Assembly (NCBI GenBank): GCA_011033025.1
Contig: WFMF01000041.1
Span: 756,053 to 820,052, forward strand
DNA length: 64,000 bases
Origin: Beroe forskalii
Taxonomy: Eukaryota; Ctenophora; Nuda; Beroida; Beroidae
Reading direction: 5' to 3'
The notes beneath the pieces were generated by a model. The model was not told the DNA's origin, ran no database searches, and was given only the letters and a program-made list of their open reading frames with translations. Below, piece by piece: positions 23,242 through 63,536 of this stretch (its first letter is position 1; each line of letters starts with the position of its first letter). A program made the translations under genes and the position numbers.

Positions 23242-24315
23242 CAGATGTCTCATGGGTGGTCAAATAGAAGTGTATCTGGTCATAAATTATGCGCTGAAAC
23301 CACTGAACCAATGATATTCGCCAGTTTTCCTTTGTTTTCCTGTAAAATCCAAAAAACCCTATTTTTACCTCTCAAAACAGTGATCCAGGACGTTCTTCAT
23401 TTCTGAGGCACCCAAGATCCGAAATCGAAAAGCTTTGGCTGATTGAGCTGAAAATTTGCACGCCATCCATGGACGACCTAAGAAAGACATACCATACTTC
23501 AGAATCCCGAAATCAGCCATTTTCTGTCTGTTATGGGGGTTAAAATCGCGTTTTTCGGCTTAAAAACTGCCTTTTTCGCCCCTTATTGGGCGTAGATGTC
23601 TCATGGGTGGTCAAATAGAAGTGTATCTGGTCATAAATTATGCGCCTGAAACCACTGAACCAATGATATTCGCCAGTTTTCCTTTGTTTTCCTGTAAAAT
23701 CCAAAAAACCCTATTTTTACCTCTCAAAACAGTGATCCAGGACGTTCTTCATTTCTGAGGCACCCAAGATCCGAAATCGAAAAGCTTTGGCCGATTGAGC
23801 TGAAAATTTGCACGCCATCCATGGACGACCTTAGAAAGACATACCATACTTCAGAATCCCGAAATCAGCCATTTTCTGTCTGTTATGGTGGGTTAAAATC
23901 GCGTTTTTCGGCTTAAAAACTGCCTTTTTCGCCCCTTATTGGGCGTAGATGTCTCATGGGTGGTCAAATAGAAGTGTATCTGGTCATAAATTATGCGCCT
24001 GAAACCACTGAACCAATGATATTCGCCAGTTTTCCTTTGTTTTCCTGTAAAATCCAAAAAACCCTATTTTACCTCTCAAAAACAGTGATCCAGGACGTTC
24101 TTCATTTCTGAGGCACCCAAGATCCGAAATCGAAAAGCTTTGGCTGATTGAGCTGAAAATTTGCACGCCATCCATGGACGACCTAAGAAGGACATACCAT
24201 ACTTCAGAATCCCGAAATCAGCCATTTTCTGTCTGTTATGGGGGTTAAAATCGCGTTTTCGGCTTAAAAACTGCCTTTTTTCGCCCCTTATTAGGCGTAG
24301 ATGTCTCATGGGTGG
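23242..24315. repeat. ~352 bp satellite, about three monomers between Gypsy and foldback element
   Basis: Direct continuation of the array at 12700-13518: the satellite word GATGTCTCATGGGTGG resumes right after the Gypsy target site. It stops at TCATGGGTGG where the foldback element begins. Confidence 0.95.
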
Positions 24316-32900: not shown

Positions 32901-33690
32901 TTATGCGCCTGAAACCACTGAACCAATGATATTCGCCAGTTTTCCTTTGTTTTCCTGTAAAATCCAAAAACCCTATTTTTACCTCTCAAAACAGTGATCC
33001 AGGATGTTCTTCATTTCTGAGGCACCCAAGATCCGAAATCGAAAAGCTTTGGCCGATTGAGCTGAAAAATTTGCACGCCATCCATGGACGACCTAAGAAA
33101 GACATACCATACTTCAGAATCCCGAAATCAGCCATTTTCGTCTGTTATGGGGGTTAAAATCGCGTTTTTCGGCTTAAAACTGCCTTTTTTCGCCCCTTTA
33201 TTGGGCGTAGATGTCTCATGGGTGGTCAAATAGAAGTGTATCTGGTCATAAATTATGCGCCTGAAACCACTGAACCAATGATATTCGCCAGTTTTCCTTG
33301 TTTTCCTGTAAAAATCCAAAAACCCCTATTTTTACCTCTCAAAACAGTGATCCAGGATGTTCTTCATTTCTGAGGCACCCAAGATCCGAAATCGAAAAAC
33401 TTTTGGCCGATTGAGCTGAAAATTTGCACGCCATCCATGGACGACCTAAGAAAGACATACCATACTTCAGAATCCCGAAATCAGCCATTTTCTGTCTGTT
33501 ATGGGGGTTAAAATCGCGTTTTTCGGCTTAAAACTGCCTTTTATTCGCCAGTTTTCCTTTGTTTTCCTGTAAAATCCAAAAAACCCTATTTTTACCTCTC
33601 AAAACAGTGATCCAGGATGTTCTTCATTTCTGAGGCACCCAAGATCCGAAATCGAAAAGCTTTTGGCCGATTGAGTTGAAGGACGTGTTG
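26911..33690. repeat. ~352 bp satellite array, about 19 monomers
   Basis: Head-to-tail monomers with measured periods of 350-352 bp around 30.4-32.2 kb (GTAGATGTC at 30401, 30753, 31105, 31455, 31805, 32156). Up to about 30.3 kb most monomers read GACCTTAGAAAG; from about 30.6 kb all read GACCTAAGAAAG. One monomer near 33540 has an internal deletion. The array ends inside a monomer at GCCGATTGAGTTGAA with no visible target duplication. Confidence 0.97.
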
Positions 33691-40000: not shown

Positions 40001-43000
40001 GTGCAGAGCTTCAATCTACACAAATATCCCACCTTCCTTTGTTTCAGCCCTGGTTCAAAATCCTCTACCTGAAGTCAAGGTGTTCCAGAAGAGAATACCA
40101 TTCATTGAACTGAATGGCAATCTTCCGGGAGTCAATGATTTCGGTGGATCACTATCCAATCAAAAGCTTCCATAGCACCGGTCAAGGTCAAACTCTCAGA
40201 AGTTATTGTTGCGCCTTTCTTGCCAAACAATCACTACCATAGCTCTTCACCCCATTCATTTCTTTTGCGTACTTGACATCCATTGTTCAAGGGAAGTTCA
40301 ATGAATGGTACTCAGACTCCAAAACACCCTCGACTCTAGTGGTCACATTGTGTTTGACTTCCATTGTTCAAGGTAAGTTCAATGAATGGGACTCCTCCAG
40401 AACACTTCGACTCGAGGTACCTAAGGTGTAAGAACAAAGACTGGAATAGCTGCTAGGGTGTCATACTGTCATATCCGCATATTGAACCCCATTGAACAAT
40501 AGAAGTCAAACACAATGCGCCCACTAGAGTCGAGGAAATGAAGGACTTAGATAGCGATCGTTTGGGCACGGTGTGGCGCAACAATATAACTTCTGAAGTT
40601 CTCAAAGTCAAAGTTTGAAGTTTGAAGTTAAGTGTTGCTATGGAAGCAACCTTTCCGTATTATCATGTTGCTATGGAAGCAACCTTTCCCTATTATCATG
40701 TTGCTATGACAACCACTCCAGATCATCATGTTGCTATGACAACCGCTCCACAACATCATGTTGCTATGACAACCCCTCCCTCTCAGGTCTAGTGGTTTGG
40801 AGGAGTCCTTCCTAAAAGTTGAGGCTATGTCGGTGAACTCAGCGGGCACATGGGAGTGCAGGGCAACTAACAACGCAGGTATCTAAACCAGTAAGAAAGA
40901 CATACCATACTTCAGAATCCCGAAATCAGCCATTTTCTGTCTGTTATGAGGGGGTTAAAATCGCGTTTTTGGGCTTCAAAACTGCCTTTTTTCGCCCCTT
41001 ATTGGGCGTAGATGTCTCATGGGTGGTCAAATAGAAGTGTATCTGGTCATAAATTATGCGCCTGAAACCACTGAACCAATGAAATTCGCCAGTTTTCCTT
41101 TGTTTTCCTGTAAAATCCAAAAACCCTATTTTTACCTCTCAAAACAGTGATCCAGGACGTTCTTCATTTCTGAAGCACCCAAGATCCGAAATCGAAAAGC
41201 TTTGGCCGATTGAGCTGAAAATTTGCACGCCATCCATGGACGACCTAAGAAAGACATACCATAATTCAGAATCCCGAAATCAGCCATTTTCTGTCTGTTA
41301 TGGGGGTTAAAATCGCGTTTGTCGGCTTAAAACTGCTTTTTTCGCCCCTTATTGGGCGTAGATGTCTCATGGTTGGTCAAATAGACGTGTATCTGGTCAT
41401 AAATTATGCGCCTGAAACCACTGAACCAATGATATTCGCCAGTTTTCCTTTGTTTTCCTGTAAAATCCAAAAACCCTATTTTTACCTCTCAAAACTAGTG
41501 ATCCAGGACGTTCTTCATTTCTGAGGCACCCAAGATCCGAAATCGAAAAGCTTTGGCCGATTGAGCTGAAAATTTGCACGCCATCCATGGACGACCTAAG
41601 AAAGACATACCATAATTCAGAATCCCGAAATCAGCCATTTTCTGTCTGTTATGGGGGGTTAAAATCGCGTTTGTCGGCTTAAAAACTGCTTTTTTTCGCT
41701 CCTTATTGGGCGTAGATGTCTCATGGGTGGTCAAATAGAAGTGTATCTGGTCATAATTTATGCGCCTGAAACCACTGAACCAATGATATTCGCCAGTTTT
41801 CCTTTGTGTTCCTGTAAAATCCGAAAAACCCTATTTTACCTCTCAAAACAGTGATCCAGGACGTTCTTCATTTCTGAGGCACCCAAGATCCGAAATCGAA
41901 AAGCTTTGGCCGATTGAGCTGAAAATTTGCACGCCATCCATGGACGACCTAAGAAAGACATACCATACTACAGAATCACGAAATCAGCCATTTTCTGTCT
42001 GTTATGGGGGGTTAAAATCGCGTTTTTCGGCTTAAAAACTGCCTTTTTTCGCCCCTTATTGGGCGTAGATGTCTCATGGGTGGTCAAATAGAAGTGTATC
42101 AGGTCATAAATTATGCGCCTGAAACCACTGAACCAATGATATTCGCCAGTTTTCCTTTGTTTTCCTGTAAAATTCAAAAAAAACCCTATTTTTACCTCTC
42201 AAAACAGTGATCCAGGACGTTCTTCATTTCTGAGGCACCCAAGATCCGAAATCGAAAAGGTTTGGCCGATTGAGCTGAAAATTTGCACGCCATCCATGGA
42301 CGACCTAAGAAAGACATACCATACTTCAGAATCCCGAAATCAGCCATTTTCTGTCTGTTATGGGGGGTTAAAATCGCGTTTTTCGGCTTAAAAACTGCCT
42401 TTCTTTCGCCTCTTATTGGGCGTAGATGTCTCATGGGTGGTCAAATAGATGTGTATCTGGTCATAAATTATGCGCCTGAAACCACTGAACCAATGATATT
42501 CGCCAGTTTTCCTTTGTTTTCCTGTAAAATCCAAAAACCCTATTTTTACCTCTCAAAACAGTGATCCAGGACGTTCTTCATTTCTGAGGCACCCAAGATC
42601 CGAAAACGAAAAGCTTTGGCCGATTGAGCTGAAAATTTGCACGCCATCCATGGACGACCTAAGAAAGACATACCATACTTCAGAATCCCGAAATCAGCCA
42701 TTTTCTGTCTGTTATGGGGGTTAAAATCGCGTTTTTCGACTTAAAAACTGCCTTTTTTCGCCCCTTATTGGGCGTAGATGTCTCATGGGTGGTCAAATAG
42801 AAGTGTATCAGGTCATAAATTATGCGCCTGAAACCACTGAACCAATGATATTCGCAAGTTTTCCTTTGTTTTCCTGTAAAATTCAAAAAACCCTATTTTT
42901 ACCTCTCAAAACAGTGATCGAAGACGTTCTTCATTTCTGAGGCACCCAAGATCCGAAATCGAAAAGCTTTGGCCGGTTGAGCTGAAAATTTGTACGCCAT

Positions 43001-46000: not shown

Positions 46001-49000
46001 TAAATTATGCGCCTGAAACCACTGAACCAATGATATTCGCCAGTTTTCCTTTGTTTTCCTGTAAAATCCAAAAACCCTATTTTTACCTCTCAAAACAGTG
46101 ATCCAGGATGTTCTTCATTTCTGAGGCACCCAAGATCCGAAATCGAAAAGCTTTGGCCGATTGAGCTGAAAATTTGCACGCCATCCATGGACGACCTAAG
46201 AAAGACATACCATACTTCAGAATCCCGAAATCAGCCATTTTCTGTCTGTTAATGGGGGTTAAAATCGCGTTTTTCGGCTTAAAAACTGCCTTTTTTCGCC
46301 CCTTTTTGGGCGTAGATGTCTCATGGGTGGTCAAATAGAAGTGTATCTGGTCATAAATTATGCGCCTGAAACCACTGAACCAATGATATTCGCCAGTTTT
46401 CCTTTGTTTTCCTGTAAAATCCAAAAAACCCTATTTTTACCTCTCAAAACAGTGATCCAGGATGTTCTTCATTTCTGAGGCACCCAAGATCCGAAATCGA
46501 AAAGCTTTGGCCGATTGAGCTGAAAATTTGCACGCCATCCATGGACGACCTAAGAAAGACATACCATACTCAGAATCCCGAAATCAGCCATTTTCTGTCT
46601 GTTATGGGGGTTAAAATCGTTTTTCGGCTTAAAACTGCCTTTTTTCGCCCCTTTATTGGGCGTAGATGTCTCATGTGTGGTCAAATAGAAGTGTATCTGG
46701 TCATAAATTATGCGCCTGAAACCACTGAACCAATGATATTCGCCAGTTTTCCTTTTTTTTTCCTGTAAAATCCAAAAAACCCTATTTTTACCTCTCAAAA
46801 CAGTGATCCAGGATGTTCTTCATTTCTGAGGCACCCAAGATCCGAAATCGAAAAGCTTTGGCCGATTGAGCTGAAAATTTGCACGCCATCCATGGACGAC
46901 CTAAGAAAGACATACCATACTTCAGAATCCCGAAATCAGCCATTTTCTGTCTGTTATGGGGGTTAAAATCGTTTTTTTCGCTTAAAACTGCCTTTTTTCG
47001 CCCCTTATTGGGCGTAGATGTCTCATGGGTGGTCAAATAGAAGTGTATCTGGTCATAAATTATGCGCCTGAAACCACTGAACCAATGATATTCGCCAGTT
47101 TTCCTTTGTTTTCCTGTAAAATCCAAAAACCCTATTTTTTACTCTCAAAACAGTGATCCAGGATGTTCTTCATTTCTGAGGCACCCAAGATCCGAAATCG
47201 AAAAGCTTTGGCCGATTGAGCTGAAAATTTGCACGCCATCCATGGACGACCTAAGAAAGACATACCATACTTCAGAATCCCGAAATCAGCCATTTTCTGT
47301 CTGTTATGGGGGTTAAAATCGCGTTTTTCGGCTTAAAACTGCCTTTTTTCGCCCCTTATTGGGCGTAGATGTCTCATGGGTGGTCAAATAGAAGTGTATC
47401 TGGTCATAAATTATGCGCCTGAAACCACTGAACCAATGATATTCGCCAGTTTTCCTTTGTTTTCCTGTAAAATCCAAAAAACCCTATTTTTACCTCTAAA
47501 AACAGTGATCCAGGATGTTCTTCATTTCTGAGGCACCCAAGATCCGAAATCGAAAAGCTTTGGCCGATTGAGCTGAAAATTTGCACGCCATCCATGGACG
47601 ACCTAAGAAAGACATACCATACTTCAGAATCCCGAAATCAGCCATTTTCTGTCTGTTATGGGGGTTAAAATCGCGTTTTTCGGCTTAAAACTGCCTTTTT
47701 TCGCCCCTTATTGGGCGTAGATGTCTCATGGGTGGTCAAATAGAAGTGTATCTGGTCATAAATTATGCGCCTGAAACCACTGAACCAATGATATTCGCCA
47801 GTTTTCCTTTGTTTTCCTGTAAAATCCAAAAACCCTATTTTTACCTCTCAAAACAGTGATCCAGGATGTTCTTCATTTCTGAGGCACCCAAGATCCGAAA
47901 TCGAAAAGCTTTGGCCGATTGAGCTGAAAATTTGCACGCCATCCATGGACGACCTAAGAAAGACATACCATACTTCAGAATCCCGAAATCAGCCATTTTC
48001 TGTCTGTTATGGGGGTTAAAATCGCGTTTTTCGGCTTAAAACTGCCTTTTTTCGCCCCTTATTGGGCGTAGATGTCTCATGGGTGGTCAAATAGAAGTGT
48101 ATCTGGTCATAAATTATGCGCCTGAAACCACTGAACCAATGATATTCGCCAGTTTTCCTTTGTTTTCCTGTAAAATCCAAAAACCCTATTTTTACCTCTC
48201 AAAACAGTGATCCAGGATGTTCTTCATTTCTGAGGCACCCAAGATCCGAAATCGAAAAAGCTTTTTGGCCGATTGAGCTGAAAATTTGCACGCCATCCAT
48301 GGACGACCTAAGAAAGACATACCATACTTCAGAATCCCGAAATCAGCCATTTTCTGTCTGTTATGGGGGGTTAAAATCGCGTTTTTCGGCTTAAAAACTG
48401 CCTTTTTTTTTTTTTTTTTGGGCGTAGATGTCTCATGGGTGGTCAAATAGAAGTGTATCTGGTCATAAATTATGCGCCTGAAACCACTGAACCAATGATA
48501 TTCGCCAGTTTTCCTTTGTTTTCCTGTAAAATCCAAAAAACCCTATTTTTACCTCTCAAAACAGTGATCCAGGATGTTCTTCATTTCTGAGGCACCCAAG
48601 ATCCGAAATCGAAAAGCTTTGGCCGATTGAGCTGAAAATTTGCACGCCATCCATGGACGACCTAAGAAAGACATACCATACTTCAGAATCCCGAAATCAG
48701 CCATTTTCTGTCTGTTATGGGGGGTTAAAATCGCGTTTTTCGGCTTAAAACTGCCTTTTTTCGCCCCTTATTGGGCGTAGATGTCTCATGGGTGGTCAAA
48801 TAGAAGTGTATCTGGTCATAAATTATGCGCCTGAAACCACTGAACCAATGATATTCGCCAGTTTTCCTTTGTTTTCCTGTAAAATCCAAAAACCCTATTT
48901 TTACCTCTCAAAACAGTGATCCAGGATGTTCTTCATTTCTGAGGCACCCAAGATCCGAAATCGAAAAGCTTTGGCCGATTGAGCTGAAAATTTGCACGCC

Positions 49001-52000
49001 ATCCATGGACGACCTAAGAAAGACATACCATACTTCAGAATCCCGAAATCAGCCATTTTCTGTCTGTTATGGGGGTTTAAAATCGCGTTTTTCGGCTTAA
49101 AACAGCCTTTTTTCGCCCCTAATTGGGCGTAGATGTCTCATGGGTGGTCAAATAGAAGTGTATGTGGTCATAAATTATGTGCCTGAAACCACTGAACCAA
49201 TGATATTCGCCAGTTTTCCTTTGTTTTCCTGTAAAATCCAAAAACCCTATTTTACCTCTCTCAAAACAGTGATCCAGGATGTTCTTCATTTCTGAGGCAC
49301 CCAAGATCCGAAATCGAAAAGCTTTGGCCGATTGAGCTGAAAATTTGCACGCCATCCATGGACGACCTAAGAAAGACATACCATACTTCAGAATCCCGAA
49401 ATCAGCCATTTTCTGTCTGTTATGGGGGTTAAAATCGCGTTTTTCGGCTTAAAACTGCCTTTTTTCGCCCCTTATTGGGCGTAGATGTCTCATGGGTGGT
49501 CAAATAGAAGTGTATCTGGTCATAAATTATGCGCCTGAAACCACTGAACCAATGATATTCGCCAGTTTTCCTTTGTTTTCCTGTAAAATCCAAAAACCCT
49601 ATTTTTACCTCTCAAAACAGTGATCCAGGATGTTCTTCATTTCTGAGGCACCCAAGATCCGAAATCGAAAAGCTTTGGCCGATTGAGCTGAAAATTTGCA
49701 CGCCATCCATGGACGACCTAAGAAAGACATACCATACTTCAGAATCCCGAAATCAGCCATTTTCTGTCTGTTATGGGGGTTAAAATCGCGTTTTTCGGCT
49801 TAAAACTGCCTTTTTTCGCCCCTTTATTGGGCGTAGATGTCTCATGGGTGGTCAAATAGAAGTGTATCTGGTCATAAATTATGCGCCTGAAACCACTGAA
49901 CCAATGATATTCGCCAGTTTTCCTTTGTTTTCCTGTAAAATCCAAAAACCCTATTTTTACCTCTCAAAACAGTGATCCAGGACGTTCTTCATTTCTGAGG
50001 CACCCAAGATCCGAAATCGAAAAGCTTTGGCCGATTGAGCTGAAAATTTGCACGCCATCCATGGACGACCTAAGAAAGACATACCATACTTCAGAATCCC
50101 GAAATCAGCCATTTTCTGTCTGTTATGGGGGTTAAAATCGTTTTTTCGGCTTAAAACTGCCTTTTTTCGCCCCTTTATTGGGCGTAGATGTCTCATGGGT
50201 GGTCAAATAGAAGTGTATCTGGTCATAAATTATGCGCCTGAAACCACTGAACCAATGATATTCGCCAGTTTTCCTTTGTTTTCCTGTAAAATCCAAAAAC
50301 CCTATTTTTACCTCTCAAAACAGTGATCCAGGACGTTCTTCATTTCTGAGGCACCCAAGATCCGAAATCGAAAAGCTTTGGCCGATTGAGCTGAAAATTT
50401 GCACGCCATCCATGGACGACCTAAGAAAGACATACCATACTTCAGAATCCCGAAATCAGCCATTTTCTGTCTGTTATCGGGGGTTAAAATCGCGTTTTTC
50501 GGCTTAAAACTGCCTTTTTTTCGCCCCTATTTGGGCGTAGATGTCTCATGGGTGGTCAAATAGAAGTGTATCTGGTCATAAATTATGCGCCTGAAACCAC
50601 TGAACCAATGATATTCGCCAGTTTTCCTTTGTTTTCCTGTAAAATCCAAAAACCCCTATTTTTACCTCTCAAAACAGTGATCCAGGACGTTCTTCATTTC
50701 TGAGGCACCCAAGATCCGAAATCGAAAAGCTTTGGCCGATTGAGCTGAAAATTTGCACGCCATCCATGGACGACCTAAGAAAGACATACCATACTTCAGA
50801 ATCCCGAAATCAGCCATTTTCTGTCTGTTATGGGGGGGAATCGCGTTTTTCGGCTTAAAACTGCCTTTTTTCGCCCCTTATTGGGCGTAGATGTCTCATG
50901 GGTGGTCAAATAGAAGTGTATCTGGTCATAAATTATGCGCCTGAAACCACTGAACCAATGATATTCGCCAGTTTTCCTTTGTTTTCCTGTAAAATCCAAA
51001 AAACCCTATTTTTACCTCTCAAAACAGTGATCCATTTCTTCATTTCTGAGGCACCCAAGATCCGAAATCGAAAAGCTTTGGCCGATTGAGCTCAAAATTT
51101 GCACGCCATCCATGGACGACCTAAGAAAGACATACCATACTTCAGAATCCCGAAATCAGCCATTTTCTGTCTGTTATGGGGGGTTAAAATCGCGTTTTTC
51201 GGCTTAAAACTGCCTTTTTTCGCCCCTTATTGGGCGTAGATGTCTCATGGGTGGTCAAATAGAAGTGTATCTGGTCATAAATTATGCGCCTGAAACCACT
51301 GAACCAATGATATTCGCCAGTTTTCCTTTGTTTTCCTGTAAAATCCAAAAACCCTATTTTTACCTCTCAAAACAGTGATCCAGGATGTTCTTCATTTCTG
51401 AGGCACCCAAGATCCGAAATCGAAAAGCTTTGGCCGATTGAGCTGAAAATTTGCACGCCATCCATGGACGACCTAAGAAAGACATACCATACTTCAGAAT
51501 CCCGAAATCAGCCATTTTCTGTCTGTTATGGGGGTTAAAATCGCGTTTTTCGGCTTAAAACTGCCTTTTTTTTCGCCCTTATTGGGCGTAGATGTCTCAT
51601 GGGTGGTCAAATAGAAGTGTATCTGGTCATAAATTATGCGCCTGAAACCACTGAACCAATGATATTCGCCAGTTTTCCTTTGTTTTCCTTTTTTTCCTGT
51701 AAAATCCAAAAACCCTATTTTTACCTCTCAAAACAGTGATCCAGGACGTTCTTCATTTCTGAGGCACCCAAGAGCCGAAATCGAAAAGCTTTGGCCGATT
51801 GAGCTGAAAATTTGCACGCCATCCATGGACGACCTAAGAAAGACATACCATACTTCAGAATCCCGAAATCAGCCATTTTCTGTCTGTTATGGGGGGTTAA
51901 AATCGCGTTTTTGGGCATAAAAACTGTCTTTCTTCGCCCCTTATTGGGCGTAGATGTCTCTTGGGTTGTCAAATAGAAGTATATCTGGTCATAAATTATA

Positions 52001-55000
52001 CGCCTGAAACCACTGAACCAATGATATTCGCCAGTTTTCCTTTGTTTTCCTGTAAAATGAAAAAAAAAACCCATTTTTACCTCTCAAAACAGTGATCCAG
52101 GATGTTCTTCATTTCTGAGGCACCCAAGATCCGAAAACGAAAAGCTTTGGCCGATTGAGCTGAAAATTTGCACGCCATCCATGGACGACCTAAGAAAGAC
52201 ATACCATACTTCAGAATCCCGAAATCAGCCATTTTCTGTCTGTTATGGGGGTTAAAATCGCGTTTTTCGGCTTAAAACTGCCTTTTTTCGCCCCTTATTG
52301 GGCGTAGATGTCTCATGGGTGGTCAAATAGAAGTGTATCGGAGGTCATAAATTGTGCGCCTGAAACCACTGAACCAATGATATATTCGCCAGTTTTCCTT
52401 TGTTTTCCTGTAAAATCCAAAAACCCTATTTTTACCTCTCAAAACAGTGATCCAGGACGTTCTTCATTTCTGAGGCACCCAAGATCCGAAATCGAAAAGC
52501 TTTTGGCCGATTGAGCTGAAAATTTGCACGCCATCCATGGACGACCTAAGAAAGACATACCATACTTCAGAATCCCGAAATCAGCCATTTTCTGTCTGTT
52601 ATGGGGGTTAAAATCGCGTTTTTTCGGCTTAAAACTGCCTTTTTTCGCCCCTTATTGGGCGTAGACGTCTCATGGGTGGTCAAATAGAAGTGTATCTGGT
52701 CATAAATTATGCGCCTGAAACCACTGAACCAATGATATTCGCCAGTTTTCCTTTGTTTTCCTGTAAAATCCAAAAACCTTATTTTTACCTCTCAAAACAG
52801 TGATCCAGGACGTTCTTCATTTCTGAGGCACCCAAGATCCGAAAACGGAAAGCTTTGGCCGATTGAGCTGAAAATTTGCACGCCATCCATGGACGACCTC
52901 AGAAAGACATACCATACTTCAGAATCCCGAAATCAGCCATTTTCTGTCTGTTATGGGGGTTAAAATCGCGTTTTTCGGCTTAAAACTGCCTTTTTTCGCC
53001 CCTTATTGGGCGTAGATGTCTCATGGGTGGTCAAATAGAAGTGTATCTGGTCATAAATTATGCACCTGAAACCACTGAACCAATGGTATTCGCCAGTTTT
53101 CCTTTGTTTTCCTGTAAAATCCAAAAACCCTATTTTTACCTTTTCAAAACAGTGATCCAGGACGTTCTTCATTTCTGAGGCACCCAAGATCCGAAATCGA
53201 AAAGCTTTGGCCGATTGAGCTGAAAATTTGCACGCCATCCATGGACGACATAAGAAAGACATACCATACTTCAGAATCCCGAAATCAGCCATTTTCTGTC
53301 TGTTATGGGGGGTTAAAATCGCGTTTTTCGGCTTAAAAACTGCCTTTTTCGCCCCTTATTGGGCGTAGATGTCTCATGGGTGGTCAAATAGAAGTGTATC
53401 TGGTCATAAATTATGCGCCTGAAACCACTGAACCAATGATATTCGCCAGTTTTCCTTTGTTTTCCTGTAAAATCCAAAAACCCTATTTTTACCTCTCAAA
53501 ACAGTGATCCAGGACGTTCTTCATTTCTGAAGCACCCAAGATCCGAAATCGAAAAGCTTTTGGCCGATTGAGCTGAAAATTTGCACGCCATCCATGGACG
53601 ACCTAAGAAAGACATACCATACTTCAGAATCCCGAAATCAGCCATTTTCTGTCTGTTATGGGGGTTAAAATCGCGTTTTTCGGCTTAAAACTGCCTTTTT
53701 TCGCCCCTTATTGGGCGTAGATGTCTCATGGGTGGTCAAATAGAAGTGTATCAGGTCATAAATTATGCGCCTGAAACCACTGAACCAATGATATTCGCCA
53801 GTTTTCCTTTGTTTTCCTGTAAAATCCAAAAAACCCTATTTTTACCTCTCAAAACAGTGATCCAGGACGTTCTTCATTTCTGAAGCACCCAAGATCCGAA
53901 ATCGAAAAGCTTTGGCCGATTGAGCTGAAAATTTGCACGCCATCCATGGACGACCTAAGAAAGACATACCATACTTCAGAATCCCGAAATCAGCCATTTT
54001 CTGTCTGTTATGGGGGTTAAAATCGCGTTTTTCGGCTTAAAACTGCCTTTTTTCGCCCCTTATTGGGCGTAGATGTCTCATGGGTGGTCAAATAGAAGTG
54101 TATCTGGTCATAAATTATGCGCCTGAAACCACTGAACCAATGATATTCGCCAGTTTTCCTTTGTTTTCCTGTAAAATCCAAAAACCCTATTTTTACCTCT
54201 CAAAAACAGTGATCCAGGACGTTCTTCATTTCTGAGGCACCCAAGATCCGAAATCGAAAAGCTTTGGCCGATTGAGCTGAAAATTTGCACGCCATCCATG
54301 GACGACCTAAGAAAGACATACCATACTTCAGAATCCTGAAATCAGCCATTTTCTGTCTGTTATGGGGGTTAAAATCGTTAAAACTGCCTTTTTTTCGCCC
54401 CTTATTGGGCGTAGATGTCTCATGGGTGGTCAAATAGAAGTGTATCTGGTCATAAATTATGCGCCTGAAACCACTGAACCAATGATATTCGCCAGTTTTC
54501 CTTTGTTTTCCTGTAAAATCCAAAAACCCTATTTTTACCTCTCAAAACAGTGATCCAGGACGTTCTTCATTTCTGAGGCACCCAAGATCCGAAATCGAAA
54601 AGCTTTTTGGGACGACCTTTCAGAAAAAATCAGCCATTTTCTGTCTGATTAAAATCGCGTTTTTCGGCTTAAAACTGCCTTTTTTCGCCCCTTATTGGGC
54701 TTAGATGTCTCATGGGTGGTCAAATAGAAGTGTATCTGGTCATAAATTATGCGCCTGAAACCACTGAACCAATGATATTCGCCAGTTTTCCTTTGTTTTC
54801 CTGTAAAATCCAAAAACCCTATTTTTACCTCTCAAAACAGTGATCCAGGACGTTCTTCATTTCTGAGGCACCCAAGATCCGAAATCGAAAAGCTTTGGCC
54901 GATTGAGCTGAAAATTTGCACGCCATCCATGGACGACCTAAGAAAGACATACCATACTTCAGAATCCCGTAATCAGCCATTTCTGTCTGTTATGGGGGTT

Positions 55001-58000
55001 AAAATCGCGTTTTTCGGCTAAAATCAGCCTTTTTTCGCCCCTTATCGGGCGTAGTTGTCTCATAGGTGGTCAAATAGAAGTGTATCTGGTCATAAATTAT
55101 GCGCCTGAAACCACTGAACCAATGATATTCGCCAGTTTTCCTTTGTTTCCTGTAAAACCAAAAAACCCTATTTTTACCTCTCAAAACAGTGATCCAGGAC
55201 GTTCTTCATTTCTGAGGCACCCAAGATCCGAAATCGAAAAGCTTTGGCCGATTGAGCTGAAAATTTGCACGCCATCCATGGACGACCTAAGAAAGACATA
55301 CCATACTTCAGAATCCCGAAATCAGCCATTTTCTGTCTGTTATGGGGGTTAAAATCGCGTTTTTCGGCTTAAAACTGCCTTTTTTCGCCCCTTTATTGGG
55401 CGTAGATGTCTCATGGGTGGTCAAATAGAAGTGTATCTGGTCATAAATTATGCGCCTGAAACCACTGAACCAATGATATTCGCCAGTTTTCCTTTGTTTT
55501 CCTGTAAAATCCAAAAACCCTATTTACCTCTCTCAAAACAGTGATCCAGGACGTTCTTCATTTCTGAGGCACCCAAGATCCGAAATCGAAAAGGTTTGGC
55601 CGATTGAGCTGAAAATTTGCACGCCATCCATGGACGACCTAAGAAAGACATACCATACTTCAGAATCCCGAAATCAGCCATTTTCTGTCTGTTATGGGGG
55701 TTAAAATCGCGTTTTTCGGCTTAAAAACTGCCTTTTTTCGCCCCTTATTGGGCGTAGATGTCTCATGGGTGGTCAAATAGAAGTGTATCTGGTCATAAAT
55801 TATGCGCCTGAAACCACTGAACCAATGATATTCGCCAGTTTTCCTTTGTTTTCCTGTAAAATCCAAAAACCCTATTTTTACCTCTCAAAACAGTGATCCA
55901 GGACGTTCTTCATTTCTGAGGCACCCAAGATCCGAAATCGAAAAGTTTTGGCCGATTGAGCTGAAAATTTGCACGCCATCCATGGACGACCTAAGAAAGA
56001 CATACCATACTTCAGAATCCCGAAATCAGCCATTTTCTGTCTGTTATGGGGGTTAAAATCGCGTTTTTCGGCTTAAAACTGCCTTTTTTCGCCCCTTATT
56101 GGGCGTAGATGTCTCATGGGTGGTCAAATAGAAGTGTATCTGGTCATAAATTATGCGCCTGAAACCACTGAACCAATGATATTCGCCAGTTTTCCTTTGT
56201 TTTCCTGTAAAATCCAAAAACCCTATTTTTACCTCTCAAAACAGTGATCCAGGACGTTCTTCATTTCTGAGGCACCCAAGATCCGAAATCGAAAAGCTTT
56301 GGCCGATTGAGCTGAAAATTTGCACGCCATCCATGGACGACCTAAGAAAGACATACCATACTTCAGAATCCCGAAATCAGCCATTTTCTGTCTGTTATGT
56401 AAAATCCAAAAACCCTATTTTTACCTCTCAAAACAGTGATCCAGGACGTTCTTCATTTCTGAAGCACCCAAGATCCGAAATCGAAAAGCTTTGGCCGATT
56501 GAGCTGAAAATTTGCACGCCATGGCCATCCATGGACGACCTAAGAACTTAAACCATTTGTTGAAATCATTTTATTTGAATCAAAATTGTGAAAGTTTTTT
56601 ACAAAATTTTGTTTTTTAGTTATGAAAATCTTGAAATTTGAAGAGACGGGCTTTGAGAAATCGCAGTATTCAGTAACACGTTGTGATGTGAATTTTATAG
56701 CTTTATTTGATTATCCCGTTACCTACTCACTCACACCCTCCACCCACCCCCAAACTCCGTGACACCACTCATTTCATTTATAAGCACACCTCACCTTCCA
56801 TTTTCAGCTGACGACGATAACCACATGATTTTCGAAAGCTACTGATTTTAAAGTTTATCGTATCATTTAACAGTTCAAACTTGCTCCCTCAATAGTTTCC
56901 GATCTATCTTTCCACCTATAAATTTCGTTTCATATCTAAGCATATAATCAAACGTTGGGAGGGGTGGATCAGTGTTATGAATATATATTGCTCGGAAAGC
57001 TAACGCACGTGATATCATAAAACTGAAACTAATCTAACCAGTCTTTAACCATTAATATCGCAAACACGTCCGTAGAACCTGAATTGCAATTCACAGGGAT
57101 TTGTGAATGCTGGCAATTCCAAAGAAAATATGGCAGCATCATAAACTCAACCATGAACTCATAAACGCAAGACTTGTGAAACCACTGTACCCATGAAATT
57201 ATCATGATTTTCGATATCACACTCCCATTCGTTTGTTAATCGTACATGATACCACTACCACAGTAACCTAGATTCTAACTAGATTGCAAAACAACCACAT
57301 GGCATTTGACGAATATAAATGAAATGTTAAGGAAGATATAGATATACAGTCAACGGAGATATCTGAAACGACCCGCATATTCAAAAAAAAACATTTAAGA
57401 CTATCTAAAAAAAACTTTAAAAAATAACTCCATTCAACACCCCGCAGGTCAGTCGGATGTTAAGTTCGTGGAGTTGATCCTGAAGTCCGGCACCTCAGGA
57501 ATGTTCGGAACAGGGTCCTCTCCTGAAGTCATCCTTTCCACCTTGCTGACTGTGGCTTTCCTGGTGTTGGTGGGACCGCTGTTGCTGGCGGTCTACTGCA
57601 AGAAACGCAAACTCTACAGACAGGCGCGGGTGAGTTTTAGATGATTAATTAGAGTCTTGAGATGTGATTTATGAACGCCATTATTAATAAGCCAATTCAG
57701 GTATAAAACGATCGAATATAAAATCAAAAAGACTTTTCCTATAAATCACGACAAGTGACGTGAAGATTGCATTCAACAGAAGAAAAATTCCAAATGCCCG
57801 CCTGCAGTCACATTAACACAAACTCGGATGGTAGTGGACCCACGTCTCTACGTCTTAAAGTAATGGGACTGGAAAATTCGACTTCAAAGTTCAAAATGAA
57901 ATTTCTGCGGAGTAAAAAGACAAATGAATTAAATGCATTAGTGCGGAATCGAGGGGAATTTCATTAGGGCAGGGGGGCAATCAACTTCATTCAGTCATAT

Positions 58001-61000
58001 ATCATTCGAGTGGTGAGACACATTAATAAAATACGCTCAGAACATAAATAGACGGTTGCAATGACTTGACTGAGCGCTGCAAAATTGTTGAAAATAACCG
58101 CCTATTCTTTGCAAGCACAGTACTTGAGTAGGGCCGGGAGATTTGGATTTAGAGTGGTGCATTAAAAACTGGCGCGACACTGTAGGCAAACGATCGGAGA
58201 ATAATTAAAATGCTTTCCATCACGTCTTTTTCCAAGGCCAATGACTGGTATGTGCTAAGTTATGCAGAATGACAAGAAGCAGGAGTTATGCAGAACTCAG
58301 AATTCTGCAAGTGTGTCACAGATCTGGGATCAAAATTACTCCTGAGACGTGGCATTGGAATAAAAATACGGAGTAAAAATACGGGAATATTTTAATTTCT
58401 GGCCAAGACTCGCATGCTAAAAACATACCATTATGGTTATTATAAGTTACTACGAATATCGGGCTTTTTATTGGAGAATTTACGGGGTAAAATTAGAAAA
58501 TTTGGGATTATAATTCCTTGCGGAGACTCCTGTTAAAATCATACCATTATCCTACCCAGCTTTTTATTCGAGAACACCCTCAAAGTCAACCTCAAAGTCA
58601 ATATTATGTTAATCGATTTTTGCAGTCAGAGATATCATTATATTAATTTTTGGCCAAGACTCATATTAAAGCTTTAAAATCATTCCATCATTCTACCCAG
58701 CTTTTTATTGGAGAACACCTTCAGGTTATAAATATCAATCCATTTGTGCACAATGTGCACTGTGCAGTCAGAGATATCATCTGCATACAGTGCACTGACC
58801 TACTGGGTATAACCAAGCCTTTTAGTGCAAATAATTATTATATTTTACCGAGTTTGATAGTGTTTTAAAAGGTTTTGACACCAGTTTAAAGACTTGATAC
58901 CATTTTAAAGGTTTGTCACCGTTTTAGAGGTTTAATAGAGGTTTAAAGGGTTTAATGGAAGTCATGAATAATGCAAACACGTGGTCAGCTCATTTTATGG
59001 CTCAGATATAAATTCTATGAACTGCTTTATATCTTAAAAGCATATTACCGTTGTAGCACTGGTTATAATGGGATCGTTAAACGAGCGTGAAAAATCGAAT
59101 ATTTAGCGGCCTCGACTATGATAATGACGTCACCAAATAAACCATTTTCCGCTTTTATAATATGACGTCATCTCAACCTGATATTTACATCTATTTAACA
59201 TATTTTCCCGTGTAGTAACAATGAAATACGCCACGTGTTGTTTCAGCTGGTTACCCCGGTAACAAGTCACGTGTTGTTTCAGCTGGTAACCCCGGTAACA
59301 AGTCACGTGTTGTTTCAGCTGGTTACCCCGGTAACAAGTCACGTGTTGTTACAGCTGGTTACCCCGGTAACAAGTTACGTGTTGTTTCAGCTGGTTACCC
59401 CGGTAACAAGTCACGTGTTGTTTCAGCTGGTTACCCCGGTAACGAGTCACGTGTTGTTTCAGCTGGTAACCCCGGTAACAGACAGCGGATTTGAAGAACG
59501 AGCTTCTCTGGAGAAAGAAATCAGAAAACTGGTGACTCCTGAGTTCTACAACAACCCTCAGGTATGAGATAGATATCATTCCAAGCCGTCAAGGCAACCT
59601 TTTACACGTTATGATATCGTGCTTTCTATCAGACGGAATCGTGGATTCGCAGTATAGTTAGATAGTTTTTGGGGATCTTAAAACTTAACTGTAAAACTGG
59701 CATATCAAGATAGTATTCTAATTGAAATTTAAATGCGACTTTTATAACCGTTAATAGAATGAGAATTATAAGACTTGATTTGGTAAATGAGTGTTCTTTG
59801 GATCCAGTTAATTAACCCGGCACAATCTTCTTGAAGACTTAACTAGATAAAAGGAAGATTCATATCTTGACATCCGAATAGAATATCAAATCCAATTCAT
59901 AGTTTCCATGATATTTTGCATCAAGACTATATAAAAGTATAAGAGCAGTTTTATTAAAGCCATTATTGTTATACTAACTAAATTTCAACAAGTTTCCTGG
60001 CTTAAAATTAACATATTATATTCACTGCACTTTGAACATCAGGTGATTCTATTTCAGTATTTCCACTGCCGCAAGAAATTAACACAGGTAGGGAAATGTT
60101 TATCTTATAACTGTAAGGAAGTTAGATGCGAAAAAAACTTCGTGTGAAAGATGATTGAAAGTACGTGCTTCCTGATATAGACACAAGATTTATTTCCTAC
60201 TTCTACTTTCATCCTTGGAATTAGAATAATATCAGAAGCCCACGTTGCTGACGGAATGACGGATACATGTGTCAGCAACGTGGGCTTTAACTAAATACTG
60301 TACTACTGTAAAGCCATATATTTTCGCGGGTGCTATTTTTCGCGTTTCTTTAAAAACAGACTAATTTCACGGTTTTAATTTTCACGCATTTCAAAATTCC
60401 TTAAACACAAACCAGTGCTTGTACGTGGCCATTTATCATTTTCGCTCATTGCTGTACGCCTTGATAGCCGGTGATTGTACAAAGGCAAAAGCCCAGTAAT
60501 GAGGTGTCTTGTTCGTCTATGTTTACTTAAGTGTGCCTCTGTTTGTCAGACATTACAGCATGTCATCCGTAAACGATACTGCGAACTTAGTTGAGGGCTT
60601 AATGTTTCTAATGAGACACTTTGAGTTGAAAATAATGCCTTGATGACGATCCAATATATCGACTTATCGAATACCTACCAACAATGTACAAGTTTCTTCC
60701 ACTCAAAAAATACGCAGATATAAATTTATCTCCAAGAATTGAAAATTAACTTCACGGCTGATATTTTCGCGGATTTTCTTTTCCAAATAAATGCGCGAAA
60801 ATTAATGCCGCGCGAAAATTAATGGCTTTACAGTAGATAAAAAGCTTATCACAGGATCACGAATTATAATCTTGACTTGTCAAGATTATAATTCGTGATT
60901 CTGTGATATGCTATTTATCTATTTAAGTATTTAGTGTCGTATACTTAAACTATAACGTATCTCAGATATCAGGCAGGGTATTGAACGATGATAATGAAGT

Positions 61001-63536
61001 AGTGACCCTTTCACCTAAATAAACTGTATTTCAGATGTCGGGGAGCACGTTGAACCAAGATAAAGTGGTTATGCCTATTAACCCTGCTTTGTTCGACCTA
61101 CCTGAGATAAACAACAGACTTCCTCCCTTGCCTAGGAGGTGCAACTCAGCTCACACCGTCAGGTAAATAAAGTGAATGAGAGGGTAAATGCAGTGAGGAA
61201 GAGGGTAAATACGCGGTAAAATATAAAGGGTAAATATAAAATAATTGACGAGATACAATGAAAAAGAGGCTGAAAAAGGAATAAAATCGGATGAAACCAC
61301 AGATTTGGTATGGACATTGGAAACAACTTCACCCTTATAATAGGAAACGACAATGAGTACGATAATATTCGAAAGCTCCTGAGCTCAGGAAACCTCAACT
61401 ATTTCATATTGTATTCGTTAGTAGTTCTCACTCTCCTAAAAGTTTAAACTTCCCAAAAAGCCTAACTGAACCCCCCAACAGATCTCTGGCTGACACACCA
61501 GGCAGCAGAGCTCACACTGCCTCCCCCGTTTGCTGCACTCCAGACAAGACAAGCACTGAACCCCAAACAGGTTAAAAACACACCCAAATCCTTCATGACA
61601 GTAACCAATCAGGTTAAAAACATCACAAATCCTTCATGGCAGTAACCAATCAGGTTAAAAACACTCCAAATAAAAGTCATGACGGTAACTGCAATCAGAG
61701 CGCGAGTTGACGGTCAACTCATGCACTGATTGGATTGTTGCCAATTAGTATAGGGACCAATGGGTGAGCTTAAAAGACGTTACTTTAAACTGGAGCTCGG
61801 ACGCAAATTGTTAAGATTAGTGAAGAATAAAAGTGCAATTTTCAATCGAGACACGCCGGTCTTTATGGAATATGAACTATGACATATTTTCACAAAGAAC
61901 CTATAAATTTATTGGTTTCAAATAAATTGGAATGCATGGATTTATTTCCGCGGCGTTTTTCGGCTAGACGATGAAATTATACTGGACAATCGCGTAAAAT
62001 CGTTTCCTAAATACTATTTGTGTTGGTTGGTGTCCTATTAAGCAGTTTGAAGTACTAAAGTTCATAATTCAGTATATTTATGATCAATGGATGCAATGGA
62101 TGCGCATGTCATAAGTCAGGCTTCAGTTTGAAAGTTTAAAACTTTAATACCTAATTAAGGTTTTAAAGGGGATTGGCATAAGCTAAACGAAAGGAACGAA
62201 TATATTTGAAATATTTTCTCTTGAGACCTTTGACAGGACCAAATTCTGATTAAAAGTAGGGTAAGAGCTACAGATGTGACAGTTGTGAAAGCCGAGTTTC
62301 TGATGCTTATTAACTCAAATAAAATCACGCATCACGCTCGTTTAAAAAGCTCAAAGTTTGTTGAGGAAATCTGCAATTCACCTGCAGTCAGACAGTGCAG
62401 TCAGACACCTTGACATAAACTCAGACGAAGTGAAAATGAGAAGAAACTGCGGTCCTGTTAGCCAATTTATATGGGGTTGTCGAGGAAAGCTGGAGGGATT
62501 ATGTCATTCTCAACCATTTTAAAAAATTTAATAACAAAATTCATATCCGAACTCAGCTGATCAACATATGACTGCTTAGCTTGAAATTCCCACCGGAAGG
62601 TGCCATACAATTTGTGTAACAGTTACAGTCAGCCACATATAAAAGGGTTTGTTGAGGAAAGATAGAGGGATTATGTCATTTCGAACCGAACCTGCAAAAA
62701 TTTTATGAAGATCAAAGTTATTATATCCGATATCAGCTGATCATTGTACAACTGCTTAGCTTGGTTTAACTCGAAAACTATAGTGCTGGACAGCTGGTGT
62801 CGCGACATCAAGAAATCATCGATGAACTGATTAATTCTGGATTTAATAAATAAGGGTTTGTCGAGGGCATCTACTGTAGAGGAGTATAGGGATTATGTCA
62901 TGTCGAACCGAACACTCAACAGTCACAAAAAAGATCAGGTTTATTATCTTCGGTATCATCTGATCAAAATATAGCTGTTTAGCTTGATTTAACCCGTCAA
63001 CCCGACAACTATAGAGGCTGTACAAGTGTCACGACTTCGAGAAATGATCGATGAACTGATTATAATTCTGGATGAAATGATAAATTCAGGAATAAATAAA
63101 TAAGGGTTTGTCGAGGGCATCTATAGAAGCATAATGTCATGTCGAACCGAACACGCACAAATTTTATAAAGATCAGATTTATTAAATTCGATATTAAATT
63201 CGATATCAGCTGATAATTGCTTACCTGACAACTAAAGAACTAAACTCAGATGTCACGACTTCAAGAAATAAGATTATAATTCTGAATTTGCCGATTGCAC
63301 GGTGCCATATAATATGTACAGTCCGTGCGAACTAACTGATATTCCAGTATTATACCGTGCACGTACAAATGACGGGTTTTTAGTACCATTCAACTTTTTG
63401 AACTAAAATCATAATGTTTTTTTCAGAGCGGAAGTTCTCGACAGTTGTTCACAGAGGAAGCGTAGGCTCCACCATCAGAACTCCTCCTGGGAAAACCTAC
63501 AAGCTGTTCAGGAGGGGATTCAGCACCATCACCTGA
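33996..63536 (+). CDS. Immunoglobulin-superfamily type I membrane protein, 3' part (about 15 exons)
   Basis: Conceptual splicing of plus-strand exons gives Ig-like extracellular segments, one transmembrane helix and a ~150-residue cytoplasmic tail ending in TGA at 63534-63536. The clearest Ig domain spans 39051-40878 (LNLLCRAAGDPQPTVDWYK, then NSAGTWECRATN). Earlier exons look like diverged Ig folds with tryptophan or cysteine landmarks. The helix lies in exon 57448-57629. The tail has EFYNNP, a possible SH2-binding site once phosphorylated, and LPPLPRRC, a class II SH3-type motif. Phase is kept at every junction from 37964 to the end; the junction 36635/37964 is out of phase, so an exon is probably missed there. 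No signal peptide or start was found upstream. It is probably an adhesion or signalling receptor; the family is not identified further. Confidence 0.82.
34286..34402 (+). CDS. Ig-gene exon B
   Basis: Acceptor CAATTCAG, donor GTACGT. It reads DGVYKLRVLDTHLG and VTNVECQSSNVWGS, like the second half of an Ig domain (D-G-Y-L-V, then V-C). Phase 1 in, phase 1 out. Confidence 0.7.
34597..34783 (+). repeat. Dispersed repeat copy 1 (TTTCGAAAATCATGTG family)
   Basis: An intronic segment with GAGCAAGTTTAAAACGTTAAATGATA, here shortened to its core GCAAGTTTAAAACGTTAAAT, then GCTTTCGAAAATCATGTG and CGTCGTCAGC, ending in GGGATAATCAA. It is inverted relative to copy 2 at 56711-56905; a partial copy 3 lies at 63690-63760. 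Confidence 0.75.
35214..35286. repeat. 22-bp-stem hairpin
   Basis: Arms 35214-35235 and 35265-35286 (AAATCTC, AATGATTCTCATT) pair with one mismatch over 22 bp. Confidence 0.75.
35304..35412. mobile_element. MITE-like element with ~29-bp inverted repeats
   Basis: Arms 35304-35332 and 35384-35412 share ATTA-ACGCCGC and GAAATAGGCGG in inverted order with a few mismatches. It resembles the 5232-5335 element in size but not in sequence. Confidence 0.6.
35690..35970 (+). repeat. GTGGTGTCA minisatellite in the intron before exon C
   Basis: Units of 13-18 bp with the cores GTGGTGTCAATGTG and GTGGTGTCAATA, grading into GCGAGAAATGTTGTC variants up to the exon C acceptor. Upstream, a ~35-bp unit GACATATCAGTAGCCCACAT is duplicated at about 35480 and 35660. 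Confidence 0.75.
35994..36117 (+). CDS. Ig-gene exon C
   Basis: Acceptor TTCTCCCAG, donor GTGAGC. It reads YPDPGFIEWSISQDP and QIDPGFIEYEAFV, with an NTS glycosylation site. Phase 1 in, phase 2 out. Confidence 0.75.
36541..36635 (+). CDS. Ig-gene exon D
   Basis: Acceptor ATTTCAG, donor GTAGGA. It reads SADVKAINFVVADAS and VQTNLEIYG, like the closing strands of a domain. Phase 2 in, phase 1 out, which does not match the next recognised exon. Confidence 0.72.
36671..36771 (+). repeat. GGGGAAATTTAA tandem repeat
   Basis: About eight units of 11-14 bp (AAGGGGAAATTT and variants) just after exon D. Confidence 0.85.
36772..37963. other. Intron D-E, nothing further recognised
   Basis: AT-rich; may hide a small exon needed to restore phase between D and E. 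None is convincing. Confidence 0.4.
37964..38074 (+). CDS. Ig-gene exon E
   Basis: Acceptor ATCACAG, donor GTTAGT. It reads TIPGVNVTITASI, then PLPGLKWLLNGEEV, the B and C strands of an Ig fold. Phase 0 in, phase 0 out. The incoming phase conflicts with exon D. A 20-nt exon at about 37890 (after TTTTTCAG) would restore phase, but its donor is weak. Confidence 0.65.
38326..38434 (+). CDS. Ig-gene exon F
   Basis: Acceptor CCCCTCAG, donor GTAACA. It reads SDDVLLEDTAVTLV and TVTLELLPQSTCHS. Phase 0 in, phase 1 out. It completes the domain begun in exon E. Confidence 0.72.
38780..38865 (+). CDS. Ig-gene exon G
   Basis: Acceptor GTTGTCAG, donor GTAAAT. It reads ARSQSVTVTVLGDSPP and NLPRYIEKRE: the G strand of one Ig domain followed by the start of the next. 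Phase 1 in, phase 0 out. A second AG 14 nt later would break phase. Confidence 0.75.
39051..39142 (+). CDS. Ig-gene exon H
   Basis: Acceptor TTTTTTTCAG, donor GTTAGT. It reads GEKLNLLCRAAGDPQ and VDWYKRQPTSS: the Ig B-strand cysteine and the C-strand tryptophan. Phase 0 in, phase 2 out. Confidence 0.88.
39208..39720 (+). repeat. Tandem duplication in intron H-I
   Basis: The block AAACTCGAGAAATAGAATTC, followed by GCAGACACATTTATTCGGTC, occurs at about 39250-39290 and again at about 39569-39608. Similar flanks (AATATTTAAAGAAA, GTGGGTCACA-like) extend each copy to 180-300 bp. Confidence 0.75.
39721..40185. other. Intron H-I, no feature recognised
   Basis: An open frame at 39820-40113 has no splice context or domain. 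No further repeat beyond short similarities to the adjacent inverted element. Confidence 0.4.
40186..40609. mobile_element. ~424 bp inverted-repeat element in intron H-I
   Basis: The outer arms 40186-40214 and 40575-40609 share CTTCAGAAGTTAT-type and TTGTTGCGCC words in inverted order. The inner arms near 40330-40382 and 40481-40534 match inverted over about 50 bp (CTCGACTCTAGTGG, TTGTGTTTGACTTC). It looks like a short foldback or MITE. Confidence 0.65.
40633..40786 (+). repeat. Five-unit minisatellite ending at the exon I acceptor
   Basis: Units TGTTGCTATGGAAGCAACC start at 40633, 40666, 40699, 40729 and 40759 (periods 33, 33, 30, 30). The later three read TGTTGCTATGACAACC. The last unit runs into CCCTCTCAG, the splice acceptor. 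Confidence 0.85.
40787..40878 (+). CDS. Ig-gene exon I
   Basis: Acceptor CCCTCTCAG, donor GTATCT. It reads LEESFLKVEAMSVN and AGTWECRATNNAG, the E and F strands with the second cysteine. Phase 2 in, phase 1 out. The second satellite array begins 12 bp after the exon. Confidence 0.88.
40891..56548. repeat. ~353 bp satellite array, about 44 monomers, inside the Ig-gene intron I-J
   Basis: Same family and orientation as the 12.7-33.7 kb arrays, in the GACCTAAGAAAG subtype. The 7-mer TAAACCA lies directly at both edges (40884-40890 and 56549-56555), as a target duplication would. Shared private variants 2.83 kb apart mark an eight-monomer duplication (41.23-46.05 kb). Some monomers carry deletions (near 54605-54650 and 56399). 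Confidence 0.97.
56556..57447. other. Intron I-J, unique part
   Basis: AT-rich. It contains the inverted dispersed repeat copy 2 (56711-56905). The remainder up to the exon J acceptor shows nothing else recognised. Confidence 0.5.
56711..56905 (-). repeat. Dispersed repeat copy 2, inverted
   Basis: Its reverse complement follows copy 1 (34597-34783) closely over about 190 bp: GAGCAAGTTT, GCTTTCGAAAATCATGTG, CGTCGTCAGCTGAAAATG, ATGAGTGGTGTCA, GGGATAATCAA. Confidence 0.75.
57448..57629 (+). CDS. Ig-gene exon J, transmembrane
   Basis: Acceptor CCCCGCAG, donor GTGAGT. It reads QSDVKFVELILKSG, then a hydrophobic helix (TLLTVAFLVLVGPLLLAVY) and the stop-transfer CKKRKLYRQAR. Phase 1 in, phase 0 out. 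The intron before it is 16.6 kb, of which 15.7 kb is satellite. Confidence 0.9.
57630..59230. other. Intron J-K with a degenerate ~130 bp repeat
   Basis: At about 58370-58745 three diverged units share CCAAGACTC, AAAATCATACCATTAT, CTACCCAGCTTTTTATT and GGAGAACACC. No exon recognised; frames at 57767-57967 and 58650-58868 break phase and lack motifs. Confidence 0.55.
59231..59482 (+). repeat. 36-bp tandem repeat carrying seven 3' splice sites
   Basis: Seven exact-length 36-bp units with TTGTTTCAG, then CTGGTTACCCCGGTAAC and AAGTCACGTG. Each has a pyrimidine-rich acceptor (one is TTGTTACAG) in the same reading frame. Each unit encodes LVTPVTSHVLFQ. It also contains the palindrome CACGTG and the arm pair GTTACC/GGTAAC. 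Confidence 0.92.
59463..59561 (+). CDS. Ig-gene exon K with seven possible starts
   Basis: The shortest form starts at 59463 after TTTCAG and reads LVTPVTDSGFEERAS, EIRKLVTPEFYNNPQ; donor GTATGA. Phase 0 at both ends. Six more acceptors lie at exact 36-nt steps upstream (starts 59247, 59283, 59319, 59355, 59391, 59427). Using any of them only adds 12-residue units and no stop. Confidence 0.85.
60058..60087 (+). CDS. Ig-gene exon L (30-nt microexon)
   Basis: Acceptor CTATTTCAG, donor GTAGGG. It reads YFHCRKKLTQ and keeps phase 0 on both sides, so it could be skipped without frame loss. Confidence 0.68.
60236..60287. repeat. Perfect 17-bp-stem hairpin
   Basis: AAGCCCACGTTGCTGAC (60236-60252) and its exact reverse complement (60271-60287) around an 18-nt loop. 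Confidence 0.8.
60303..60836. mobile_element. 534-bp non-autonomous DNA transposon-like element
   Basis: The ends CTACTGTAAAGCCAT and ATGGCTTTACAGTAG are perfect inverted repeats. Just inside, both ends carry TTTTCGCG words. No transposase frame. The flanking TA at both sides may be the target site but is not certain. Confidence 0.75.
60847..60908. repeat. Near-perfect 62-bp palindrome
   Basis: 30-bp arms (60847-60876, 60879-60908) with a single mismatch and a 2-nt centre. The inner words are CACGAATTATAATCTTGAC and their mirror. It starts only 10 bp after the previous element. Confidence 0.85.
61035..61162 (+). CDS. Ig-gene exon M
   Basis: Acceptor GTATTTCAG, donor GTAAAT. It reads MSGSTLNQDKVVMP, DLPEINNRLPPLPRR and CNSAHTV. 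It holds the PPLPRR motif. Phase 0 in, phase 2 out. Confidence 0.82.
61163..61481. other. Intron M-N, nothing recognised
   Basis: Purine-rich, AT-rich intron; the minus-strand frame here is low complexity. Confidence 0.45.
61482..61570 (+). CDS. Ig-gene exon N
   Basis: Acceptor CCCAACAG, donor GTTAAA. It reads SLADTPGSRAHTAS and CCTPDKTSTEPQT, rich in Ser/Thr-Pro. Phase 2 in, phase 1 out. The donor is repeated twice just downstream. Confidence 0.8.
61569..61700 (+). repeat. ~42-bp tandem repeat beginning at the exon N donor
   Basis: CAGGTTAAAAACA occurs at the true donor (GT at 61571) and again with GT at 61613 and 61654, separated by AATCCTTCATG and CAGTAACCAATCAG. Extending to the later donors meets an in-frame TAA at once, so only the first gives an open product. 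Confidence 0.85.
61701..63426. repeat. Intron N-O with ~170-250 bp degenerate tandem units
   Basis: Four units start near 62472, 62645, 62852 and 63102, marked by GGGTTTGTYGAGG, GGATTATGTCAT, TCGAACCGAAC, ATATCAGCTGATCA and CTGCTTAGCTTG. The part before 62470 shows no feature. Confidence 0.7.
63427..63536 (+). CDS. Ig-gene last coding exon O
   Basis: Acceptor TTTTTTTCAG. It reads RKFSTVVHRGSVGS, TIRTPPGKTYKLFRR and GFSTIT, then TGA. Phase 1 in. Basic and Ser/Thr-rich, with possible phosphorylation sites. Confidence 0.85.

Follow-up and report, generated by a model that had tools for sequence, protein, structure and literature searches.

A minisatellite that copies a 3′ splice site in front of a receptor tail exon, with the last copy probably the one in use

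When a tandem repeat copies the 3′ splice site of an exon together with the start of that exon, which copy is joined to the preceding exon and does the protein change with the number of repeats? The question is raised by a tail exon (exon K) of a receptor gene in the window analysed here, the window being the whole stretch of 64,000 nucleotides, in which seven units of 36 bp run up to and into the exon. A preliminary description took the array to be a larger, repeat-driven form of the NAGNAG-type tandem acceptor, possibly giving a receptor tail whose length is set by both allele and splicing. On the basis of the sequence and of analogy with other genes of the same genome, the array is very probably a minisatellite of the kind called a 'mirage', in which the last acceptor is normally used and the upstream copies are intronic.

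The structure of the array is as first described, with direct inspection, TRF and the count of core matches all agreeing on seven units that each carry an acceptor and the start of exon K. TRF gave a 36-bp period with 95% matches between copies, and a 27-base core had seven matches at no more than one mismatch within the array and none in 100 shuffles, such that the repetition is not due to chance. Each unit is made up of 15 intron bases to the TTTCAG, the first 18 bases of the exon and three filler bases, with the end of intron J reading CACGTGTTGTTTCAG with minor variants and the start of exon K reading CTGGTNACCCCGGTAAC. The AG is present in all seven units, acceptor 4 being TTACAG and the other six TTTCAG. 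The array extends from 15 bases 5′ of the first possible exon start to 18 bases into exon K and so straddles the boundary, in keeping with the earlier proposal that minisatellite expansion copied an acceptor plus the adjoining coding sequence. The possible starts of exon K are at 59247, 59283, 59319, 59355, 59391, 59427 and 59463, and by these coordinates a join at any of the seven preserves frame 0 between exon J (end 57629) and exon K (end 59561) without passing through a stop. The 12-residue unit said to be added up to six times is less uniform than proposed, with four of the six extra units reading exactly LVTPVTSHVLFQ, one ending in ...VLLQ and one having ...SYVLFQ. Nor would these residues come right after the membrane helix, as the basic stretch KKRKLYRQAR intervenes between helix and repeat. 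A search of the 216-Mb assembly, which passes over very common words, gave one match to the array sequence, with no second haplotype of the locus found in the assembly, where it is single copy. Folded as RNA the array had a z score of -1.8, with 3 of 100 shuffles equally or more stable.

That the units are in frame and stop-free could be taken as a sign that they are translated. The 36-bp unit is stop-free in a second reading frame as well, making the lack of stops weak coding evidence. Among random 36-mers of intron J, 47% were open in any given frame, and a unit both stop-free and of a length divisible by three (47% × 1/3) is thus a coincidence of about 16%, such that the in-frame property of the array carries little weight.

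The exons of the gene and the two parts of the array are given in Table 1. The exons from exon J onward keep the reading frame. An Ig_3 match in Pfam searches of stop-masked frames (30.3 bits, the cut-off being 30) marks a putative first half of the Ig-like region, while the same type of search matched no family on the tail; a match to a viral zinc finger (E 0.028) was weak and was dismissed as chance. No paralogue of the receptor gene was found in the genome, and a hand-assembled receptor query of 349 aa had no homologue at E ≤ 1.

Table 1. Features of the receptor gene and of the exon K array (positions in the window)
Feature	Position	Strand	Basis or remark
Exon H, resembling the latter half of an Ig domain, precedes exon J	40787..40878	+	putative; Ig_3-like first half at 39036-39134
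Exon J, membrane helix and KKRKLYRQAR, donor CGG/GTGAGT, phase 0 end	57448..57629	+	helix end conserved in P0001
36-bp minisatellite, 6.9 copies	59232..59480	+	TRF, core matches, frame check
The six units 5′ of the last, most probably part of the intron, in frame were they used	59247..59462	+	absent from P0001; analogy with CCT and myosin genes
Exon K, LVTPVTDSGFEERASLEKEIRKLVTPEFYNNPQ, start at last acceptor, most likely form	59463..59561	+	frame; P0001 SK/VVTPVTDSGY...SLEKEIRKLVTP
Exon L, YFHCRKKLTQ	60058..60087	+	sequence not conserved in P0001, block spacing similar
Exon M, ...NPALFDLPEINNRLPPLPRRCNSAHTV	61035..61162	+	part conserved in P0001
Exon N to stop codon, SLADTPGSRAHTASPVCCTP...	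61482..61575	+	conserved in P0001

A query made of the helix plus the tail found one protein, P0001 (JGI source), of 132 aa on a contig of 1072 bases (E 2.2e-31, 55% identity over 66% of the query), and a profile built from the query and P0001 recovered P0001 again and no further relative. P0001 is a single open frame in which the helix end and the basic stretch are followed by the counterparts of exons K, M and N, and it is probably a transcript because exons that are separated by introns here run contiguously there. It places exons J, K, M and N in one gene, in support of the earlier assignment of exon K. Around exon L the distance between the flanking conserved blocks is almost equal in the receptor and P0001 (29 versus 28 residues, as counted from the alignment). 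At the point in question P0001 reads ...RRSK/VVTPVTDSGYEDHVSLEKEIRKLVTP..., with the tail entered at the position of the join that the last acceptor (59463) would make, and the 12-residue repeat (LVTPVTSHVLFQ) is absent from this, the only relative found, whose tail has a single unit. As P0001 is a relative and not this allele, it tells what the protein looks like when no array is present rather than how the allele in the window is spliced.

Arrays in which the working acceptor can be recognised from conserved protein occur elsewhere in the same assembly. Acceptors of known position were collected from CCT and myosin-head genes in 15 gene stretches, a subset of the family matches, where 61 candidate introns gave 34 that were resolved and 27 that were dropped. 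In one CCT gene (L046, 3383-3517) four tandem acceptors with spacings of 38, 31 and 31 precede the exon NCGVNTIRT..., whereas the second CCT copy (L047), inverted on the same contig, has a single acceptor at that site; the matching pieces of the two are mostly 82-98% identical and they may be alleles or paralogues. A myosin-head gene (L058, minus strand, 1140-1422 in that orientation) has about nine units by hand count, seven with TTTCAG, an array that TRF gives as 7.9 copies of 34 bp. Among the TTTCAG acceptors in L046 and L058 the conserved protein follows from the last one only, with the upstream TTTCAG acceptors leading to stops in three of three cases in the CCT gene and six of six in the myosin gene. 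In L047 a 37-bp repeat of 2.9 copies (minus strand, 2279-2387 in that orientation) copies a donor, CTTACAG/GTTTGT. On contigs C198, C695, C573 and C558 family matches come in inverted pairs, 12-45 kb apart and scoring equally or almost so, which are either haplotypes joined head to head or true inverted duplications.

Taken together with P0001 these genes favour an explanation in which a tandem repeat, growing across the intron-exon boundary, made six copies of the 3′ splice site. The spliceosome would normally take the last, exon-proximal acceptor at 59463 to give an exon K of 99 nt, with the six upstream copies probably removed as part of the intron. In each unit a TAAC lying about 20 nt ahead of the following exon start (hand count) may serve as branch point, such that the last unit would form a complete 3′ splice site alone; among the 23 control acceptors described below, branch-point motifs were not significantly enriched (7 against 4). 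With the last copy normally used the repeats need not alter the protein, and the array may persist because any repeat number with an intact last copy would lead to the same mRNA, the copy number drifting nearly neutrally for as long as that copy is kept.

The strength of the acceptors does not separate the copies. Against a matrix of 23 acceptors, some of whose junctions may be misplaced (of the 34 resolved, nine were dropped for having no pyrimidine before the AG or for belonging to a duplicate gene, and the two in arrays were left out), the seven array acceptors scored from 1.3 to 4.1, alike and low, ranking 3-4 among the 23 true acceptors. The last acceptor is not favoured by score, and 4 of the 86 other AGs in intron J outscore all seven. 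With scores so alike sequence alone cannot pick a copy, and the length of the resulting exon (99 against up to 315 nt) may decide between them.

Several acceptors may be used in parallel, adding 0-6 copies of the 12-residue unit after the membrane-proximal stretch, as the seven AGs are all intact, in frame, without stops and similar in score. The frame is kept here, unlike in the CCT and myosin arrays, such that use of an upstream copy would not destroy the protein, and a variable-length tail is conceivable because the array happens to be in frame. Comparable cases exist in human segmental duplications, where variable tandem repeats with units of 30 bp on average lie at exon-intron boundaries and alternative transcripts often accompany them, with 66% of the repeat-driven intron changes also having transcripts that retain the repeat (PMC2812944). 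The human repeats resemble the exon K array in being minisatellites that at boundaries can change exon-intron structure, and differ in that transcripts show novel introns, often with both forms, whereas the array here is known from genomic DNA; the 66% figure speaks for a possible alternative acceptor use (PMC2812944). Parallel use is nonetheless unlikely given the repeat-free P0001, the need for the last acceptor in the CCT and myosin genes of the same genome, the odds of an in-frame, stop-free unit arising by coincidence and the regular splicing reported for lancelet mirages (PMC3087553; PMC3902484). A bolder version, in which amplification of tandem 3′ splice modules is widespread and fast here and leaky choice adds 0-6 twelve-residue, Thr-Pro-containing units to a tail whose length is set by allele and splicing, is likewise improbable. 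Nothing found calls for a length-variable tail, and that part of the preliminary description is not supported in view of P0001, of the CCT and myosin genes and of the undisturbed splicing reported for lancelet mirages.

Were the first acceptor always used, the array would be a coding repeat of the ordinary kind and would give a tail with seven LVTP units. A first-AG scanning model would favour 59246, which is the first AG downstream of a TAGTAAC, and the exon that would follow, 315 nt long, has no stop; with P0001 having only one unit and the upstream acceptors of the CCT and myosin arrays unable to be the protein-making ones, this is very unlikely. That the array serves chiefly as a group of putative regulatory sites, with CACGTG in each unit (TACGTG once) and in most units an X-box-like palindrome GTTACCCCGGTAAC, is hardly credible, for although the window has eight occurrences of GTTRYYNNRRYAAC where 0.27 would be expected, the eight matches are confined to two arrays (five in the exon K array and three beside exon H) and so are not independent.

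A mirage with its last acceptor in use, the preferred reading, has clear precedents. Amphioxus globin genes contain minisatellite-like duplications of intron-exon boundaries that were named 'mirages' after those of Adh3, with units of 10-72 bp in Adh3 and 150-160 bp in the globins; in BflGb6 the 3′ end of the intron and the 5′ part of exon 2 are duplicated with six and three units in two haplotypes, and many mirage units retain AG/GT signals while RT-PCR suggests regular splicing (PMC3087553). Further lancelet mirages were found in troponin C and PGBD5, where regular splicing was reported undisturbed (PMC3902484). Nor is the idea of a new kind of structure supported, since repeats that cross intron-exon boundaries have been published in lancelets (PMC3087553; PMC3902484). 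The exon K array shares with the lancelet cases (Adh3, BflGb6/BflGb9, troponin C and PGBD5) a boundary-spanning repeat that copies splice signals, and differs in having a stop-free unit that is a multiple of three and in being in another animal, one that is probably not a lancelet in view of its 216-Mb assembly and of the missing match to the GFP family, which lancelets possess. Searches made without a positive control gave no GFP, zf-C4, troponin or hormone-receptor match, homeobox matches numbered 104, and a ctenophore is a candidate host (PMC3038971; PMC2959044). It has the minisatellite-sized tandem unit (36 bp × 6.9) and the copied boundary with its splice signal that define a mirage; as to variation in unit number, the CCT array has four against one between the two gene copies, the receptor locus being single in the assembly.

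Two other systems can be compared. In NAGNAG and other tandem acceptors several in-frame AGs precede one exon, whereas in the exon K array the AGs are 36 apart rather than 3, number seven and were made by a repeat, which places it outside the NAGNAG class. The notothenioid antifreeze glycoprotein gene likewise contains a coding repeat that grew within a gene; the repeat there is the protein, whereas here a relative exists without it. Work from 1997 reportedly traced that repeat to an element lying across an intron-exon junction.

In the introns of the CCT and myosin genes arrays are just a frequent feature, and some of them lie over splice sites. Counting an array where at least 20 of 26 bases were repeated within 160, 2 of 34 acceptors and 1 of 34 donors in the survey had one, while 8.5% of 1360 random intronic positions passed the same test; the acceptor arrays being no commoner than this background, there is no special targeting of splice sites by arrays. 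An introner, or another mobile element that brings splice sites with it, was rejected as dispersed copies were lacking, the exon K array having its one genome match in the search that passes over very common words and a 14-mer common to the CCT and myosin arrays occurring 15 times in all, of which the two CCT copies and the myosin gene account for eight. Within the receptor gene 3 of 15 arrays touch an exon boundary against a permutation mean of 1.0 (P 0.07) and 4 of 15 lie within 20 bases of one against 1.4 (P 0.05), for a post hoc list in which the boundary at 61569 is a guess within exon N and the acceptor of that exon was placed one base off, and enrichment at the boundaries is not claimed.

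Other repeats were seen in the window. A 30-33-bp repeat at 40633-40786 runs up to the exon H acceptor, with the AG in the last unit only; GTTGCTATGACAAC is present in its units and resembles an X-box, like the palindrome of the exon K array. A GGTAAAT repeat starts at the exon M donor (61162-61211) and a 41-bp repeat crosses the exon N stop codon (61563-61671). A satellite of about 352 bp forms long arrays by TRF at 23243-24315, 26911-33549, 40892-54606 and 54649-56399, with about 15 kb of it making up the greater part of the intron that separates exons H and J. At 16654-17840 frames like a Penelope-like reverse transcriptase (YIDDIF) and a GIY-YIG-like stretch were recognised by eye, with no Pfam match.

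Taken alone the receptor array is one more mirage, of a kind already known. Should the host be something other than a lancelet, mirages would not be restricted to that group. The pair of CCT copies, with four acceptors against one, and the myosin gene with its approximately nine units are natural experiments in which the conserved protein marks the working acceptor, and they allow a direct test of how the spliceosome chooses among near-identical 3′ splice sites. The presence of mirage-like arrays at 3 of the 68 resolved splice sites of this genome is a more interesting lead than the single locus.
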